The notes under the pieces: generated by a model
What the model saw: the letters and a program-made list of their open reading frames with translations, nothing else
Database searches by the model: none
What the model was told of the DNA's origin: nothing
In this document: one piece after another, positions 206 to 16,951 of the stretch
How the letters are laid out: the number at the start of each line of letters is the position of its first letter
How positions within the stretch are numbered: position 1 is the stretch's first letter
IMG/VR virus record: IMGVR_UViG_3300046028_010882
Coordinates: 1-23,574 of that record
Reading direction: 5' to 3' (one strand)
Length of the DNA: 23,574 bases
Source: a virus
Position numbers and translations under genes: made by a program

Positions 206-712
206 ATGGCTCGTATAAGAATTGGCTTTAGTGATGATACACATTGGACACCATGGGGATGGGCGATCAAGCGGTATATGGGCACTACCTTTTACCATAC
301 TTACTTCTTTTTTGATGATCTTGACGAAACATGGGAATCAGTTACAACAGGCGTTAGAGTTCTACCAAGACAAAAATGGTTAGAAAAACATAAAATAGTT
401 CGTGAATTTTGTTTCATTATTCCAGATGCTAGAATGGAAGAGGTCAGGGCGTTTGCGAAAAGCAAGCTTGGAACTGAATACGGATATTTCCAATACATTG
501 CCATATTGTTTGACCTTGCCAGAACCAATGGACTTAATAGAGTTATATGCTCGGAGTTTGTTGCTAGATGCCTTTCTATAGAACTTGGATATCCTGAAGA
601 CACAAATTTTGATATAATAACACCTAGAGATGTATACGAAAGGGCGAAAGAAAAATATGGTTTTAACTCAGGCTTATGGACAAAGATTCCCAGCATGATA
701 GCGAGAAAATAA
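206..712 (+). CDS. Permuted papain-fold (NlpC/P60-like, YiiX-like) cysteine hydrolase
   Basis: A 168-aa protein with GGAGG at 195-199, six bases before the ATG. A histidine in an YHTYFFF stretch (about residue 31) comes before a cysteine in VICSEFVARCL (about residue 115). That His-before-Cys order and the CSEFVA motif are the signature of circularly permuted papain-like enzymes (YiiX/YebB type), which cut amide bonds in peptidoglycan peptides or in other substrates. It heads a run of lysis-type genes, with its stop overlapping the next start (TAATG at 710-714). A cell-wall role is therefore plausible. No signal peptide is seen. Some relatives act on lipids or on protein conjugates, so the substrate is uncertain. 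Confidence 0.6.
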   Translation: MARIRIGFSDDTHWTPWGWAIKRYMGTTFYHTYFFFDDLDETWESVTTGVRVLPRQKWLEKHKIVREFCFIIPDARMEEVRAFAKSKLGTEYGYFQYIAILFDLARTNGLNRVICSEFVARCLSIELGYPEDTNFDIITPRDVYERAKEKYGFNSGLWTKIPSMIARK

Positions 713-916: not shown

Positions 917-1063
917 ATGGGCTGGATTCCGATTGTACTTAAGGTAATAGAACTGATATTAAAGTATTTACTTAGCCAAGAGGAAAGTAAACCACTAGTC
1001 AGAGAAAAACTTTCTGCATTAATTGATGGAGAAAATAAAAAAGATGCCGCCAATCTACGATAG
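917..1063 (+). CDS. 48-aa membrane-associated peptide in the lysis cassette
   Basis: The short ORF has a strong AAGGAG at 905-910, six bases before ATG 917, and begins one base after the preceding stop. Residues 2-19 (GWIPIVLKVIELILKYLL) form a hydrophobic to amphipathic helix, and the rest is a charged helix. It overlaps the start of the M15-like gene by about 20 bases. Possible roles are a second holin component, an antiholin or a lysis regulator; none is proven by sequence. The ribosome site and tight packing make me fairly sure that it is translated. Confidence 0.55.
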   Translation: MGWIPIVLKVIELILKYLLSQEESKPLVREKLSALIDGENKKDAANLR

Positions 1064-1451
1064 ATATCATGGTTTAGTTCGGCAATTTTCTGTCAAGGAA
1101 GGGGTCGATATTAACGATCTATTTTATTTGCCATTTAGTCTATGTCAAATGTTTTTTGATTTCTGCATAAAAGCGGAAGAGTTAGACATGCCAATGGTAG
1201 TTATCACTAGAATAGTTGATGATAAAATCGCAGGTGTTTCCGTTTCCGACTCCCATCGTGGTAGAGCTATCGATATAAGAAGCCAATCTTGGTCGCCAAT
1301 CGCTATTAAAAAGATTGTTGAATATATTAATAATAAATATTCTCACATAGGTGCAATCTCTTTGAGTGACGGCAAGCCTAGGGCCATTGTACACCACGAT
1401 GCAGGATTAAAAATGCACTTTCATTTGCAGGTTAAATCAGGAGTCGTTTAA
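1044..1451 (+). CDS. M15-like metallopeptidase, probable endolysin
   Basis: With the ATG at 1044 the protein has 135 aa. GGAGA at 1028-1032 lies upstream, at rather long spacing; an ATG at 1026 is the alternative start. The motif SHRGRAIDI (about residues 70-78) matches the HxxGxAxD zinc site of M15 / D-Ala-D-Ala carboxypeptidase / hedgehog-fold peptidases. A C-terminal HFHLQV (125-130) gives the second HxH ligand pair. Many phages use such enzymes to cut peptidoglycan cross-links at the end of infection, and the holin candidate upstream fits. No signal peptide is present, so export would need the holin. The 3' end overlaps the convergent membrane gene by 20 bases. Confidence 0.6.
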   Translation: MPPIYDRYHGLVRQFSVKEGVDINDLFYLPFSLCQMFFDFCIKAEELDMPMVVITRIVDDKIAGVSVSDSHRGRAIDIRSQSWSPIAIKKIVEYINNKYSHIGAISLSDGKPRAIVHHDAGLKMHFHLQVKSGVV

Positions 1452-2589
1452 TTGCCATAATTGCCAATACCTTTTCAGGTATCATCGAGAAAGAAAAATA
1501 AGCAATGCTATTTACAAGCAAGCAAGCGATAAATCCCATGAAGAATGGATCATTATATCCAAGGAAAAATAACTCTCCAAGAGAAGCTATTAGTAATAAC
1601 GCTCCAACATTTCCGCCTTCTATCCACCATTGATAGACATCGTTATGAATAAAAATAAAACAATTGTCACCTGATTTAGGAGCGCATTTCCTTGCGTTTA
1701 TTTGTAGTATTGGAAAAGCATATTTAAATGCACCGTTACCGATACCAAAAAGTTTATGGGCATATGGTTTATACAGAATGTTGTAAGCTTGTTTCCAAAC
1801 TTCTATTCTTCCAGCGGAATAAAATATCGGGTGTAATCTAATTCCGAATATCTTATATCGCTTAATTTCATCATCGCCAAATAAATCAACTGATCTTTCC
1901 CACCACAATGGTAATGTTAATAAAATAATTCCACAAACAGATGCCACTACAATTGGATAGCTATAAGACCAATAAATTGTACTTCCAAGTATGATGCCGC
2001 CTATACCAGAAGATCCTTTAGCTTTAAACGTTGCCGATGCTCCAGCAATATATCCAACTAAACCAAGGTAGGGAATTGAACACGCCAAAGATGCCATTGC
2101 CATACAGCTCATGAGCGCACCGTTGATTGAAATATTAGAACCAAGCCCATACATAGGGATTTTCTTCTTCACTGGCTTAGCATAGACCATAAGCGGAAAG
2201 AATGTTGTAATCGCACCGCCAATTGTAATCAGCGGAATCATGTCGAAGAAATTGCTTACTAGGCTATTTGGAAATAATAAAAAAAGAATTGCTAGGCAAA
2301 GCAGATTTATAAATTCATAACTGACACCGCTTATATAATGGTAATTTGTAACGCCATTTTTCCCAGTACAGAAGTTATCTAGGAAATGATTGCCCGATAA
2401 GTAACATGCGCTCCCCATGGCGTAGGCAATTAAAAAACTAGATACCGGCACTAGCTGAAATAAAAACCACCAGAGAATAGCGATAACTAGAAATCTCATG
2501 CAGAGACTTTTCTGGTGGAAATAGTCGGTGTATTTATTCCAAGCAAATACTGGTAGGAAAACCAAGAGAAGAATAATTGTTGTAATCAT
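1432..2589 (-). CDS. O-antigen ligase/polymerase-like (WaaL/Wzy) polytopic membrane protein
   Basis: A 385-aa protein with roughly ten hydrophobic spans. Its most soluble loop (residues about 231-325) carries the family pattern: Arg261 in GRIEVWKQA, a FGIGNGAF turn (281-288), His315 in IHNDVYQWW and Glu324 in WIEGG. These match the Arg, G-x-G and His of WaaL/Wzy_C enzymes, which move or join undecaprenyl-linked sugar chains on the periplasmic side of the inner membrane. It is shorter than many WaaL proteins but has all the core elements. It lies alone on the minus strand between lysis genes and an SGNH lipoprotein. No ribosome site precedes the ATG (upstream bases read GACAATATTAT), so it may be weakly translated or nearly leaderless. 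The family call is inferred from motifs and topology. Confidence 0.6.
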   Translation of the reverse strand: MITTIILLLVFLPVFAWNKYTDYFHQKSLCMRFLVIAILWWFLFQLVPVSSFLIAYAMGSACYLSGNHFLDNFCTGKNGVTNYHYISGVSYEFINLLCLAILFLLFPNSLVSNFFDMIPLITIGGAITTFFPLMVYAKPVKKKIPMYGLGSNISINGALMSCMAMASLACSIPYLGLVGYIAGASATFKAKGSSGIGGIILGSTIYWSYSYPIVVASVCGIILLTLPLWWERSVDLFGDDEIKRYKIFGIRLHPIFYSAGRIEVWKQAYNILYKPYAHKLFGIGNGAFKYAFPILQINARKCAPKSGDNCFIFIHNDVYQWWIEGGNVGALLLIASLGELFFLGYNDPFFMGFIACLLVNSIAYFSFSMIPEKVLAIMAIKRLLI

Positions 2590-2714
2590 ATAATATTGTC
2601 AGAGAAAAAAATAATATCGTCAAAATTATAATAATTATTAAAGATTATAAATTTTTTCAAAATGAGAAGGTAGGATTGCTCGGTGAGTCGTGGAATAAAA
2701 AAAAGGTTTTTCTG

Positions 2715-2756
2715 ATACTAAGATTCGAATATGATATGCGCTCCGAATCCTAGTAT
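2715..2756. repeat. Inverted repeat with 13-bp arms (12 of 13 paired)
   Basis: The arms ATACTAAGATTCG (2715-2727) and CGAATCCTAGTAT (2744-2756) are complementary except for one A-C mismatch, with a 16-base spacer. No U-run follows, so it is not a typical terminator. It is long enough to be a dimeric protein-binding site or a stable RNA hairpin. Confidence 0.5.
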
Positions 2757-2872
2757 ACTATTCAGCTCAAAAAACAAGCCCGAATATTACGGATATACTC
2801 TAGTGAATTCAATATGTTACAAGATGTTAACAGATATTACCAACGTGGTTTCAATAAGTTATATTTACGATA

Positions 2873-2920
2873 ACCCCTTATATAGACTAGGGGTAAATGC
2901 TTAGAATCGATATTTCTAAG
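2873..2920. repeat. Two adjacent short inverted repeats upstream of the 3018 promoter
   Basis: ACCCCT (2873-2878) pairs with AGGGGT (2889-2894) around a 10-base loop. Six bases later CTTAGAA (2900-2906) pairs with TTCTAAG (2914-2920) around TCGATAT. Both are perfect. They sit 40-80 bases before the promoter of the accessory operon, where activator or repressor sites are common. Function is inferred only from position. Confidence 0.4.
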
Positions 2921-2956
2921 GTCAATGAAATCAGGTAGTTAGACTAAACAAAGGTA

Positions 2957-2985
2957 TATACAAAAGTATATACTTGTGGTATAAT
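2957..2985 (+). promoter_or_regulatory. Extended -10 sigma70-type promoter with overlapping palindromic operator
   Basis: TATAAT at 2980-2985 is preceded by TGG (2977-2979), a perfect extended -10. A -35-like TATACA lies at 2957-2962 with a 17-base spacer. Two copies of the self-complementary GTATATAC (2954-2961 and 2966-2973), 12 bases apart, cover the -35 and the spacer, an ideal place for a repressor. Transcription should start near 2992, giving a leader of about 26 bases before the AAGGAG of the 3018 gene. Confidence 0.6.
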
Positions 2986-3017
2986 TAGATATAAGGGAAA
3001 TTGAAAAGGAGAATAAA

Positions 3018-3356
3018 ATGAAAAAAACAATCAAGATTATAGAGCAAGAAAAAGTATCAAGTGTTGGCGCAAATGGTGGTTATAGATTTATGAGTGTTTT
3101 TTCAATAGGTTCTGACATGTTTAGAGTAGTGATAAAAGGCGATAGCTACATATTCCAAACCAAAGCTAAACTTGAAAAGTGGACAACAGAAAAAGGGTTT
3201 TGCCCAATAATTGAAAGAAAATTAACAGAAAAAGAAAACGTTAGCTCAGTGACCATTTATGAAACCCGAGCGCTTGTTCAGGCATGCAAAGAATTTAGCA
3301 TAATAACTAAAGACTTTGAATCTAAGGCACAAAATATTGTAAAAATTTTAAAATAA
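3018..3356 (+). CDS. Orphan 112-aa protein, first gene of the accessory operon
   Basis: AAGGAG at 3006-3011 sits six bases before the ATG. The protein is Lys-rich and mixed alpha/beta, with no membrane span or signal peptide; it has one cysteine (in GFCPII) and a second in QACKEF. The first half looks like a beta-rich domain (YRFMSVFSIGSDMFRVVI) and the second half is helical. I do not recognise a family. It is the gene nearest the promoter and is followed after 19 bases by the SGNH lipoprotein gene, so both should be made together and early. A regulator of the cargo or a host-takeover factor are guesses only. Confidence 0.6.
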   Translation: MKKTIKIIEQEKVSSVGANGGYRFMSVFSIGSDMFRVVIKGDSYIFQTKAKLEKWTTEKGFCPIIERKLTEKENVSSVTIYETRALVQACKEFSIITKDFESKAQNIVKILK

Positions 3357-3375
3357 GAAAAAGAAGGGGCATCGT

Positions 3376-4083
3376 ATGAAAACAATAATATTAATAACAA
3401 TAATGATCCTAATAGGATGCAAAGGACAAGATCAAGTTAGCGGCCAAGCAGCCCCTCAAGTGGTCTACGATGCCTCTCCAGAATGTGATCCATTGACTGC
3501 AGAAATGCCAGAATTAGACGGAAGAGATGCTGTCCTAATAATTGGCGATTCAATATCAATGAATTACACCGATGAAATTCATTCTCTAATGCCGGACTTT
3601 CAAATAATGCGAAATTCATGTAACGGTAAAAACACAACATGGGGCGCAAGATATATTGAACTATGGGTGGATCATGCAGACAGCTGGGCGGTATGTACTA
3701 TCAACCATGGACTTTGGAATCTCTTTAACGGCTTGAATGAAGAAGGAGAGTTGTATAACCAAGGAACTGAGCAATACTTAGATGATCTAGAGTATGAAAT
3801 ATCAGTTTTAAAAACCAGATGCGAAAAAGTGATATTTGTAACCACCACTTCAACCCCGATATTATATACCGCACATACTACTCAGAAAGTGGTTGAGTTG
3901 AATGATGCCGCCAAAGAACGAATGGCAGAATTAGAAATCCCAGTTTGCGATATATACCCAGTGACAATTGGAATTGACCACTTAAGGCAACAGCCAGAAT
4001 CAAAATTTGACGTGCACTGGTCACCAGCCGGTGCGAGATTAATAGCTGAAAAAATAAAAACCTGTATTGAAGAGGAGTTATAA
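3376..4083 (+). CDS. SGNH/GDSL-hydrolase-like lipoprotein (esterase or deacetylase candidate)
   Basis: A 235-aa protein. Residues 1-15 form a lipoprotein signal peptide with lipobox LIGC and acylated Cys15, so it should sit in the envelope of a Gram-negative cell. The mature part shows SGNH blocks: IIGDSI with nucleophile Ser59, a TINHGLW stretch with Asn110 in the block III position, and FDVHWSPAG with Asp212/His214 as block V. SGNH enzymes remove acyl groups, often O-acetyls, from sugars or lipids. Together with the O-antigen-ligase-like gene across the control region, it could alter surface glycans and block superinfection. Substrate and effect are inference; family membership rests on the three motifs. 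AAGAAGGGG precedes the ATG. Confidence 0.65.
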   Translation: MKTIILITIMILIGCKGQDQVSGQAAPQVVYDASPECDPLTAEMPELDGRDAVLIIGDSISMNYTDEIHSLMPDFQIMRNSCNGKNTTWGARYIELWVDHADSWAVCTINHGLWNLFNGLNEEGELYNQGTEQYLDDLEYEISVLKTRCEKVIFVTTTSTPILYTAHTTQKVVELNDAAKERMAELEIPVCDIYPVTIGIDHLRQQPESKFDVHWSPAGARLIAEKIKTCIEEEL

Positions 4084-4084
4084 A

Positions 4085-4300
4085 ATGAAAGAATTAATGT
4101 TGGCATTACATAAACAGAACCTTGATCTGGATAAAAAGTATAAGTTCTATTTTGAAAAGCATTCAGAGTTCTGCGTAAGGTTCGATGAATTGAGTGAAGA
4201 TAAAGAATCAAGTGCAAGCGACTATCAGGAATTATGTTTAGCATTAATAGATGCTTTCTCAGATCTATACTTTTTCGACAAAACAAAGGAGTCAAAATGA
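4085..4300 (+). CDS. Orphan acidic helical protein, 71 aa
   Basis: The start is the ATG at 4085, seven bases after AGAGGAG (4071-4077) and just after the previous stop; a TTG at 4067 in the same frame is unlikely. The protein is acidic and probably all helical, with aromatic residues in KYKFYFEKH and LYFFDK. The stop overlaps the next start as ATGA (4297-4300), so translation is coupled. No family is recognised. Confidence 0.6.
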   Translation: MKELMLALHKQNLDLDKKYKFYFEKHSEFCVRFDELSEDKESSASDYQELCLALIDAFSDLYFFDKTKESK

Positions 4301-4561: not shown

Positions 4562-4723
4562 ATGGAAATCAAGAAGCAAAAGAAATCAGATCATCTAATT
4601 AAACAAGTGCCAGATGCTACATGGGCACTGTTAAAACAAGCTGCGCATGAGTGTGGCGTTACAATGGGAAAAATGTTGGAACTGATTGTATTGGAAGCGA
4701 TTAAAAAAGGAGATAAAAAATGA
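4562..4723 (+). CDS. Ribbon-helix-helix (Arc/CopG-like) small DNA-binding protein, 53 aa
   Basis: AAGGAG at 4550-4555 precedes ATG 4562. After a basic N-terminus (KKQKKSDH), the sequence IKQVPDATWALLKQAAHECG followed by VTMGKMLELIVLEAIKK fits a short strand and two helices, the ribbon-helix-helix layout of Arc and plasmid CopG-type repressors, which bind DNA as dimers. It overlaps the next gene by ATGA. The GTATATAC pair at its own operon promoter is a possible target, which is a guess. Confidence 0.5.
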   Translation: MEIKKQKKSDHLIKQVPDATWALLKQAAHECGVTMGKMLELIVLEAIKKGDKK

Positions 4724-4902
4724 GTGCAGAAAGATTAAATTGTTTAACGATTAAAGAGATGGAAATAATTGAGATAGCGTTAGAGGGTTTCATAGACATT
4801 ATGGACGATTTTGGCGATGAAGATGAAGGGGTTGATATTGTCGAAGCTAGGGATCTTTTAAAAGACATAAAAACTATATTGACGATAGACCGAAACTCTT
4901 AG
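4720..4902 (+). CDS. Orphan acidic helical protein, 60 aa
   Basis: AAAGGAG lies just before the ATG, which overlaps the preceding stop. The protein is very acidic (DDFGDEDEGVDIVEARD in the middle) and helical, a composition seen in DNA-mimic and antirepressor-type phage proteins, but no family is recognised. It is the last gene of the rightward operon; its end overlaps the convergent Fis-type gene by 29 bases. Confidence 0.6.
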   Translation: MSAERLNCLTIKEMEIIEIALEGFIDIMDDFGDEDEGVDIVEARDLLKDIKTILTIDRNS

Positions 4903-5260
4903 CTAGCTTTACCAACTCTTTTTCAACATATTCTTTCTTAGAGGGTAGCCAGTAATCAGGGGTTGCCCTTAGGAATTCTGCTTTCTTTTGTCTGTATGTT
5001 ATTTCTGGAACGTCCATACATGTAGGATACACTTGCTTTAAATCAGGAAACTTATTCAGATTATTTCTAAACGAGCGCATGCACATGCCGAGATATTCTG
5101 CGGTTTCTTTCCGATGCCCATTGCAATGCTCAAGACCTCTTCTTAAATACTCTCGAAGCCATAGTTTTTTCCGCTCGCTTGGGGTAAAAGAATTTGAGAA
5201 TAGTTCGTCGGGAATGTTACGTGGTGTTGCTGAAATAAATCTTTCAAATGGGCGGTTCAT
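4874..5260 (-). CDS. Fis/NtrC-type HTH transcription regulator, 128 aa
   Basis: Residues about 38-72 (LRRGLEHCNGHRKETAEYLG followed by MCMRSFRNNLNKF) match the C-terminal helix-turn-helix of Fis and NtrC-family activators, with the typical NGHRKETAEYLGM..RSFRNNL pattern. The rest has no response-regulator or AAA+ domain. It is the last gene of the long leftward transcript and its start overlaps the previous stop as ATGA. As a promoter-distal regulator it could control the accessory operon that converges on it, or late genes; that is inference. Confidence 0.6.
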   Translation of the reverse strand: MNRPFERFISATPRNIPDELFSNSFTPSERKKLWLREYLRRGLEHCNGHRKETAEYLGMCMRSFRNNLNKFPDLKQVYPTCMDVPEITYRQKKAEFLRATPDYWLPSKKEYVEKELVKLAKSFGLSSI

Positions 5261-14523: not shown

Positions 14524-14579
14524 AGAAATGGAAATGAAATTGATCCAAAAGATTTCGCATTAATTAGGTGAGGGAATAC

Positions 14580-15890
14580 ATGAATAAAACTATTAAAGTA
14601 ACTTGCGATGTTAAAGACTATGCCGACCTTGAAGATATCCACGTTATTCAAGGGAAATTAAAAACCCTATCAGAAGCAAATTATAAAAAACTGCGTGATT
14701 CAATTGAGAAAGAAGGTTTCGCTTTTCCAATTCATGTTTGGCCAAACAATGGCGTATACAATATTATTGGTGGCACACATAGGAAGCTTGCCTTAACCAA
14801 GATGAAAGAAGAAGGGTATGATATTCCAAAAATACCAATTATAAAAATAGAAGCAAATGATTTGCAACACGCTAAGAAATTATTGCTTTTAGAAACTTCA
14901 AGCTTTGCAAAAATAACAGAAGAAGGTCTTGCTGAATTTATGGAGGATATGGACTTTTCTATTCTTGAAGATGTTGAGCTTGAGGGTATGGAAGATTTCG
15001 ATTTCTTGATACCGCCAATCGAAGGAGATGATTCAAAAGATGATGAAGTCCCAGAAGTAGAAGAAAACGCTGTTGCTAAATTAGGAGATGTTTGGTTGCT
15101 TGGTAGCCACCGTTTGCTTTGTGGGGATAGTACGAAAAGAGAAGATGTCGATAAGCTAATGAAAGGCGAGAAGGCAGATATGGTTTTTACTGACCCACCG
15201 TATGGGATATCTCTTGGATTTGAGACGCCAGAACAAGCCAAGGCTAGAAATAGAAGGACGGATGGTCTTAGGGTTCAAAACGATGATCTGCAAGATGATG
15301 ATCTTTTACAGTTCCTTATTTCTTCTATTTCTAACGCAGACTCGGTTCTTGAGAAAGGCGGAGCTTTTTATATTTGTAGCCCGATAGGTAAAGAGGTTAG
15401 AAAATTTATTGAAGCAATTGAGTTTTCTAATTGGCACTATCAAAGCGGTTTAGTTTGGAATAAATCTTCCCTATCTTTATCTCGCCATGACTATCACCCA
15501 AAACACGAAATTATTCACTATGGATGGAAGGGTGGTAAAGCTCACACATGGGAAGCAGATAGAAAGCAAACCACTGTTTTTGATTTTGACAAACCAAGCA
15601 AGTCGGGTCTTCATCCTACAATTAAACCTGTTGAGTTGGTTGAATACTATATTTCAAATGTATCAAAACATGGATTTAAAGTTCTAGATTTATTCTTAGG
15701 TTCTGGGACATCAATAATAGCATCAGAAAAACTTGGAAGAAGTTGTTACGGCATGGAACTTGATGAAAAATACTGCGACGTTATTATAAAGCGGTGGCAA
15801 GAATACACAAAAAAAGAAGCAATTCGAGAAAGTGACGGAGCGAATTTTAATAACTTATATTCAGAAGTATTAACGAAAAGGTCTTGTTAG
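14580..15890 (+). CDS. ParB/sulfiredoxin-like domain fused to a beta-class DNA methyltransferase
   Basis: Start at ATG 14580 with AGGTGAGGG at 14566-14574, giving 436 aa; a GTG at 14568 is part of that ribosome site. Residues 20-110 are ParB-like, with GGTHRK at 64-69. From about 168 follows an amino-methyltransferase with DPPY at 205-208, HPTIKP at 345-350 and SAM-binding VLDLFLGSGT at 368-377. This order (DPPY before FxGxG) defines the beta class, which methylates adenine N6 or cytosine N4. The ParB-MTase fusion is frequent just before terminase genes in phages and may mark DNA for packaging or against host restriction. No cognate restriction enzyme is present here. Confidence 0.85.
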   Translation: MNKTIKVTCDVKDYADLEDIHVIQGKLKTLSEANYKKLRDSIEKEGFAFPIHVWPNNGVYNIIGGTHRKLALTKMKEEGYDIPKIPIIKIEANDLQHAKKLLLLETSSFAKITEEGLAEFMEDMDFSILEDVELEGMEDFDFLIPPIEGDDSKDDEVPEVEENAVAKLGDVWLLGSHRLLCGDSTKREDVDKLMKGEKADMVFTDPPYGISLGFETPEQAKARNRRTDGLRVQNDDLQDDDLLQFLISSISNADSVLEKGGAFYICSPIGKEVRKFIEAIEFSNWHYQSGLVWNKSSLSLSRHDYHPKHEIIHYGWKGGKAHTWEADRKQTTVFDFDKPSKSGLHPTIKPVELVEYYISNVSKHGFKVLDLFLGSGTSIIASEKLGRSCYGMELDEKYCDVIIKRWQEYTKKEAIRESDGANFNNLYSEVLTKRSC

Positions 15891-16121: not shown

Positions 16122-16469
16122 TTGTCGCTAAAATTAGATATGGATTGGTCTAAGCTAGAAGGTATGTTGATTTTTGATGCTTCCAAGGTCGCTTGTGCAA
16201 TGATATTAGGCATAAGCGCAGATACAATTGAAAGAAGAATTAAAGAAAAGTATAACATGAATTTTACTGAATATAAGAAAACGCATCTTGAAACCACTGT
16301 ACTTAGACTTAAGCAACGAATGATAAAAAAAGCCCTTGATGGAGACAACACCTGTTTGATATTCACGTTGAAAAATATTTCAGACTGGAAAGATCAAGTA
16401 GAAAATAAATCAGACAACAAAGATAATCAGATAACACTTAATATCAAACAATGGGAAAATTCAAAATGA
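16122..16469 (+). CDS. terS: Terminase small subunit
   Basis: A 115-aa protein started at TTG 16122, the first codon after an in-frame stop and five bases after AAAAGGAG (16109-16116); the next ATG (16140) has no site. It has an HTH-like N-terminal half (ASKVACAMILGISADTIERR) and a C-terminal region LDGDNTCLIFTLKNISDWKD, the recurring DG(D)..a..F.LKN..gWkd pattern of small terminases. It recognises phage DNA and loads the large subunit. The last 19 bases overlap the HNH gene, and the large subunit follows after it. Confidence 0.7.
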   Translation: MSLKLDMDWSKLEGMLIFDASKVACAMILGISADTIERRIKEKYNMNFTEYKKTHLETTVLRLKQRMIKKALDGDNTCLIFTLKNISDWKDQVENKSDNKDNQITLNIKQWENSK

Positions 16470-16951
16470 CATTCGCAGAGGCAAGACAACATTTTAAATA
16501 TTATGATGGCGAACTGTATTGGCGAAAACCAACAAGTAGATGTGTTAGAGTGAACGCAAAGGCAGGTAACGTCTATGATAACTATGAGTTCTTAAGGTTC
16601 AAAGGGAAAAGTTATCCAACCCATAAAGTAATCTTTCTTTATTTCAATGGATATAAGCCTAGGTTTATAGACCATATAGACAGAAATAAAACAAATAACA
16701 ATATAGAAAATCTTAGAGAATGTACCAAGTCTCAAAACGAAGCAAACACCGGACATCGGAAAACAAATAAGCTCAAAGAAAAACATATTTGTATAAATTG
16801 GGGATGGTATAGAGTTCGGATAGACAGGCACGAAAAAAGGATTGAGGGAAGTTTTAAGACGATAGAAGAAGCCATAACATTCAGAGACAATGCTCTTAAA
16901 GAAGTAGACAAAGAATTTTATTACAAAGGGAATGAACAACTTTGCCAATAG
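16451..16951 (+). CDS. HNH homing endonuclease with AP2-like C-terminus, between terS and terL
   Basis: A 166-aa protein. YYDGELYWRKP opens the HNH_3-type fold; FIDHIDRNKTNNNIENLREC (70-90) holds the His-Asp-His-x-Asn core, followed by SQNEAN. YRVRIDRHEKRIEGSFKTIEEA (119-140) is an AP2-like DNA-binding hairpin. It overlaps terS by 19 bases and terL by 10, so translation of the three is linked. It is a free-standing selfish endonuclease rather than part of an intron, since both terminase reading frames look complete. Confidence 0.75.
   Translation: MGKFKMTFAEARQHFKYYDGELYWRKPTSRCVRVNAKAGNVYDNYEFLRFKGKSYPTHKVIFLYFNGYKPRFIDHIDRNKTNNNIENLRECTKSQNEANTGHRKTNKLKEKHICINWGWYRVRIDRHEKRIEGSFKTIEEAITFRDNALKEVDKEFYYKGNEQLCQ

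Follow-up and report, generated by a model that had tools for sequence, protein, structure and literature searches.

Does a phage of which only part of the genome is in hand carry genes that rebuild the surface of its host? The question is raised by the IMG/VR virus record IMGVR_UViG_3300046028_010882, a partial, linear contig of 23,574 bases that was analysed over its whole length (the window). Near its left end, beside a probable lysis group, are a gene for a polytopic membrane protein of 385 residues (1432-2589, minus strand; wzy) and a gene for a putative lipoprotein hydrolase of 235 residues (3376-4083, plus strand). A sequence-only reading made earlier had assigned the first protein to the WaaL/Wzy family and the second to the SGNH hydrolases, and had proposed that together they could remodel the cell surface. 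Its coordinates and reading frames for both genes proved exact. The best reading, and probably the right one by analogy with phages D3, epsilon15 and VarioGold and with an Acinetobacter prophage Wzy, is remodelling of a surface polysaccharide by the Wzy-like protein.

The Wzy_C protein and the predicted SGNH lipoprotein

Residues 203-334 of the 385-residue protein match the Pfam family Wzy_C (PF04932) in a hidden Markov model search with E=1e-6 and 29.1 bits, slightly below the curated cut-off of 31.7 bits. In a six-frame search the Wzy_C match reached 32 bits, above that cut-off. Reversed and three locally shuffled copies of the protein gave no Wzy_C match. With the same profile the window protein ranks above the VarioGold protein (16.2 bits) and D3 Wzy-beta (21.9 bits), and below epsilon15 Wzy-beta (40.0 bits). 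Hydropathy, the only guide to its topology, indicates about 9-10 hydrophobic segments and one hydrophilic loop, about 95 residues long (231-324), where the family norm is 10-14 membrane segments with a large periplasmic loop. The loop contains R232, R251, R261 and H315, the histidine lying within the HX10G motif HNDVYQWWIEGG. The O-antigen ligases have Arg265 and His313 (PMC10920833), and in the D3-type Wzy-beta the residues Arg254, Arg270, Arg272 and His300 are essential (PMC4815439). The loop arginines and histidine of the window protein fit both patterns, the Arg-to-Arg assignment not being fixed. By profile and motif, then, the protein is a member of the Wzy_C superfamily of O-antigen polymerases and ligases, and the family named in the sequence-only reading is borne out.

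The 235-residue protein begins with MKTIILITIMILIGC, which includes the lipobox ILIGC with Cys15; from this lipobox the protein is predicted to be acylated and anchored in the envelope. It has GDS at 57-59 and DVH at 212-214. Candidate Gly and Asn blocks (NGKN, INHGLWN) were read by eye and are less certain. Lipase_GDSL_2 (PF13472) covers the whole protein in a weak match (E=6e-5, 24 bits; the curated cut-off is 32.9 bits), and three additional GDSL/SGNH families match weakly. Reversed and three locally shuffled copies gave no PF13472 match. A single-sequence model has low confidence, with a predicted local distance difference test (pLDDT) score of 50. The best solved matches to this low-confidence model are nearly all GDSL/SGNH esterases, the top one at Z 12.0 and 3.5 Å over 164 residues, and 152 of 1000 chains reached a Z of at least 8. 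Motifs, profiles and fold model thus all point to an SGNH/GDSL hydrolase, as the earlier reading had proposed from the GDS and DVH motifs. Acetyl and carbohydrate esterases are frequent among the solved matches, and therefore the protein most likely acts by deacetylating a polysaccharide.

Known phages and relatives of the window

In the sequence-only reading, genes of this kind were not counted as a usual feature beside a lysis cassette. This turned out to be wrong, since D3, epsilon15 and VarioGold all carry such genes beside or very near their lysis genes. In the Pseudomonas phage D3 the serotype-conversion genes iap (minus), oac for an O-antigen acetylase (plus) and wzy-beta (minus) are separated from the endolysin gene by a single HNH endonuclease gene. 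As in the window, a Wzy_C protein of nearly equal length (386 residues) is encoded on the strand opposite the nearby endolysin gene, and an SGNH-domain, acetyl-handling enzyme (PF19040, E=8e-37) on the other strand. In D3, however, the SGNH domain forms part of a fusion with an acyltransferase-3 domain and serves to add acetyl groups, whereas the window enzyme is a free, predicted lipoprotein. D3 also has an inhibitor peptide and an integrase, neither of which was found in the window, and its Wzy-beta has no sequence similarity to the window protein beyond the motif. Infection by D3 makes the host resistant to other phages, an effect attributed to its inhibitor and Wzy-beta (PMC4815439).

The Salmonella phage epsilon15 has a 392-residue Wzy_C protein on the minus strand, opposite the adjacent holin and endolysin genes on the plus strand; wzy and the gene for an inhibitor of the alpha-polymerase, both minus, directly precede this group. 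It differs from the window in the adjoining inhibitor gene, the presence of an integrase and the lack of an SGNH enzyme, and its Wzy-beta has no BLAST similarity to the window protein beyond the HN...G motif. In the temperate Variovorax phage VarioGold, the Wzy_C gene VG_p25, for a proposed O-antigen ligase-family protein, is convergent with and adjoins the lysis cassette at its spanin end, in the same position and orientation as in the window. Its neighbour VG_p26, a secreted protein considered as a possible SGNH enzyme, was rejected as it has no Pfam match. A fourth case, likened to the window by description and not by sequence, is WzyPh1 of an Acinetobacter prophage, a phage-encoded Wzy that sets the linkage of the capsule K-units (PMC9241936); it differs in acting on capsule. 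The window has a Wzy_C polymerase-family gene next to weakly identified lysis genes, as in the D3 and epsilon15 type. Judged by gene order and family membership, the cassette is a further example of the known serotype-converting phage arrangement and closely resembles those of D3, epsilon15 and VarioGold.

Terminase-related loci in viral contigs, 17 in a first search and then 23, are mostly short fragments, of which only the longer ones are informative. No Wzy_C gene was found in any of the 23, and no SGNH gene in the first 17. The most useful relative, a 34 kb contig (G018) with a terminase 66% identical, has an endolysin homologue (45%) followed directly by the convergent early genes SSB and ERF, and no Wzy_C gene. 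These two genes occupy the place held in the window by wzy and the SGNH operon. Because G018 carries ERF and SSB there instead, the cassette looks like optional cargo in a variable slot between the lysis and early modules. Both flanks of the cargo have relatives in G018, the endolysin at the identity just given and an HTH_8 protein at 32%.

The cassette is covered by this contig alone. An assembly chimera is nevertheless unlikely, because wzy, which is convergent with the endolysin-like gene at 1023-1451, overlaps its end by 20 bases and because both flanking genes are related to those of G018. A recent foreign origin is not supported by base composition; the GC content, third-position GC content (GC3) and codon use of wzy and the SGNH gene are within the range of the other genes of the phage. 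Relatives of the terminase in genomes gave no hint of the host.

A scan of viral contigs for the DNA pattern of HNDxxQWxxExG, which does not measure how frequent phage Wzy genes are, returned L050, a true Wzy_C protein (67 bits), and a single chance match. No similar Wzy protein was found in 50,697 phage records. A profile of P0001 (with L050) gave only spurious matches against the PDB.

Layout of the cassette and the rest of the contig

The sequence-only reading had the two genes flanking one control region. This is correct for wzy, which borders the 428-base gap between the divergent transcription units; the other border is formed by the open reading frame (ORF) at 3018-3356, behind which the SGNH gene is second in its operon. 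The SGNH gene is thus not at the gap, and it is followed by small proteins (Table 1). The extended -10 site is well positioned for the plus-strand operon, and the counts of promoter-like sites are not above those in shuffled sequence. No ribosome site (Shine-Dalgarno) is visible upstream of the wzy start. The ribbon-helix-helix-like protein encoded at 4562-4723 is a possible regulator of the divergent cargo.

Table 1. Features of the cargo cassette and its surroundings in the window.
Feature	Position	Strand	Evidence or remark
Permuted papain-like (C92) peptidase	206-712	+	PF05708 E=7e-4; phrog_1128 E=1e-9; upstream of endolysin-like gene
Possible holin, 79 aa	676-915	+	Hydropathy (single C-terminal hydrophobic segment); no convincing family match
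Probable endolysin, M15-like	1023-1451	+	HxxGxAxD ... HxH pattern (by eye); 45% identity to G018 gene at same place; phrog endolysin match weak, E=0.15
Wzy_C-family polytopic membrane glycosyltransferase (O-antigen/capsule polymerase- or ligase-like), 385 aa	1432-2589	-	PF04932 match, hydropathy, HX10G motif
Wzy_C domain; loop with GR261, GIGNG and HNDVYQWWIEGG motifs	1588-1980	-	Six-frame profile search, hydropathy, motif reading
Intergenic gap between divergent transcription units, 428 bases	2590-3017		Extended -10 promoter-like site 2957-2985 (+) before ORF 3018
112-aa protein, first gene of plus-strand operon	3018-3356	+	Good ribosome site; only a weak PHROG match (phrog_10108 E=0.004)
SGNH/GDSL hydrolase with predicted lipoprotein signal (Cys15), 235 aa; Ser59, D212/H214 motifs	3376-4083	+	PF13472, fold model, motifs
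Small ORF after SGNH gene	4085-4300	+	ATG start; TTG-start version from 4067
Possible ribbon-helix-helix DNA-binding protein, 53 aa, last part of plus-strand operon	4562-4723	+	Weak RHH_5 match E=0.21; ribosome site
Fis-type HTH_8 regulator, right flank of cargo	4874-5260	-	PF02954 E=9e-6; 32% identity to G018 protein

The rest of the contig is that of a tailed phage. Terminase, portal and capsid genes are at the right end, genes for a primase, a helicase, a RecE-like exonuclease and an annealing protein in the middle, and the probable lysis group, recognised by weak matches and motifs only, at the left end. The peptidase at 206-712 is of the YaeF/YiiX type (C92) and has a distant homologue (24%) among the tail genes of another relative, G013; it may be a tail-derived rather than a lysis protein. 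Upstream of the terminase, a ParB-like domain is fused to a DNA methyltransferase (14568-15890; phrog_498 E=2e-109). An HNH endonuclease ORF (16451-16951) lies between the small and large terminase genes and overlaps both. Among the relatives, the terminase gene of G015 is broken into two pieces, and the large terminase of G003 (L004:4551-5783) has an internal stop or frame break on straight read-through. No RNA families or tRNAs were found, and an anti-phage defence library gave no relevant match.

Proposed mechanism and its rivals

According to the reading favoured here, the phage would carry surface-remodelling cargo ("moron" genes) in the variable slot that separates the lysis module from the early one. 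As in D3 and epsilon15, the Wzy_C glycosyltransferase would sit in the inner membrane, accept lipid-linked sugar repeats on the periplasmic side and connect them through a linkage other than that of the host. The altered linkage would modify the O-antigen or capsule chain to which other phages attach. The SGNH esterase, anchored in the envelope as a lipoprotein, would most likely strip an envelope polysaccharide of acetyl (or other acyl) groups. We infer the secretion, the substrate (O-antigen or capsule), the linkage change and the exclusion of phages.

That the two enzymes act jointly is a guess. In the joint remodelling of the sequence-only reading, the part of the Wzy-like protein stood, as its most likely role by analogy; the pairing is conjectural, the two genes being in separate transcription units with no second example of the pair. 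A scheme of two coordinated steps in a phage that lacks an integrase and is possibly strictly lytic, a linkage change by a divergent Wzy and a deacetylation by a lipoprotein on the host side, is decidedly improbable. As a combination of polymerase and deacetylase it would be new against the known cassettes compared, in which the partner of Wzy is either an acetylase or an inhibitor.

Several points weigh against surface remodelling. First, the family score of the Wzy-like protein is only at the curated cut-off and that of the SGNH protein is under it. Second, AlphaFold run without relatives on the 385-residue protein gave a pLDDT of 38.6, a model too poor to be judged for the GT-C fold of the family. 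Third, a close homologue of the Wzy-like protein is absent from phage, plasmid and viral-contig collections and from 84,980 genomes, and one of the SGNH protein is absent from the phage, plasmid and viral-contig collections, genome contigs not having been scanned for it. With close homologues of neither protein, a conserved pair of wzy and SGNH genes was not seen. Fourth, a polymerase-inhibitor peptide like those of D3 and epsilon15 is not recognisable; between 2560 and 3030 no small hydrophobic ORF preceded by a ribosome site is convincing, though such peptides are too short to be excluded by this ORF reading. Fifth, neither a tyrosine nor a serine integrase (PF00589, PF00239) was found in the window and four relatives, all of them partial or of unknown completeness. 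Lysogenic conversion is therefore unsupported in what is a partial contig. To these is added the location of the two genes in separate transcription units.

The same separation favours the first alternative, in which the Wzy_C protein remodels the surface and the SGNH protein, unrelated to it, serves lysis or access through the envelope, as a lysophospholipase or as a peptidoglycan O-acetyl esterase assisting the endolysin. The SGNH operon shares its strand with the lysis genes, and the fold relatives of the SGNH model include the thioesterase/lysophospholipase TesA and the peptidoglycan enzyme PatB. However, acetyl and carbohydrate esterases are numerous among the solved matches, wzy separates the SGNH gene from the lysis genes, and the operon otherwise holds small genes with no assigned function. 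A lysis role is rather unlikely.

It is also unlikely, and a little more so, that the 385-residue protein is a WaaL-type ligase or a protein-directed O-oligosaccharyltransferase, which would attach chains to a new acceptor and not polymerise them. The histidine at the catalytic position (H315) is what is conserved in O-ligases, most polymerases of the ligase clan carrying Asp or Glu there (PMC10920833), and the spacing of 54 between R261 and H315 is close to the 48 between R265 and H313 in the ligase. But the D3-type Wzy-beta, a true polymerase, also requires His300 in the same motif (PMC4815439), and the phage proteins known from this position are actual or presumed polymerases.

Phage lipoproteins such as Llp and Cor are known to mask receptors, and a predicted lipoprotein in the outer membrane might likewise block superinfection physically without catalysis; this is extremely improbable for the SGNH protein, which retains the GDS and DVH motifs and the full SGNH fold and whose sole Cor-like match is the signal peptide (E=0.3).

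Phage SGNH enzymes have been described in virions. The tail-fibre protein gp63.1 of G7C deacetylates a surface polysaccharide, and two receptor-binding proteins of Klebsiella prophages have esterase activity (PMC13123978). They share the SGNH esterase fold with the window protein but are parts of the virion; the window protein instead carries a lipoprotein signal, and it is from the infected cell that it would act.

With this cassette, surface-conversion cargo of the D3 and epsilon15 type is extended to a divergent phage group that is uncultivated, which also suggests that such genes land repeatedly at the edge of the lysis module. To our knowledge, deacetylation of polysaccharides by phage SGNH enzymes is so far known from tail fibres. 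If the SGNH lipoprotein does deacetylate the host surface, it would be a host-side version of this tail-fibre activity.

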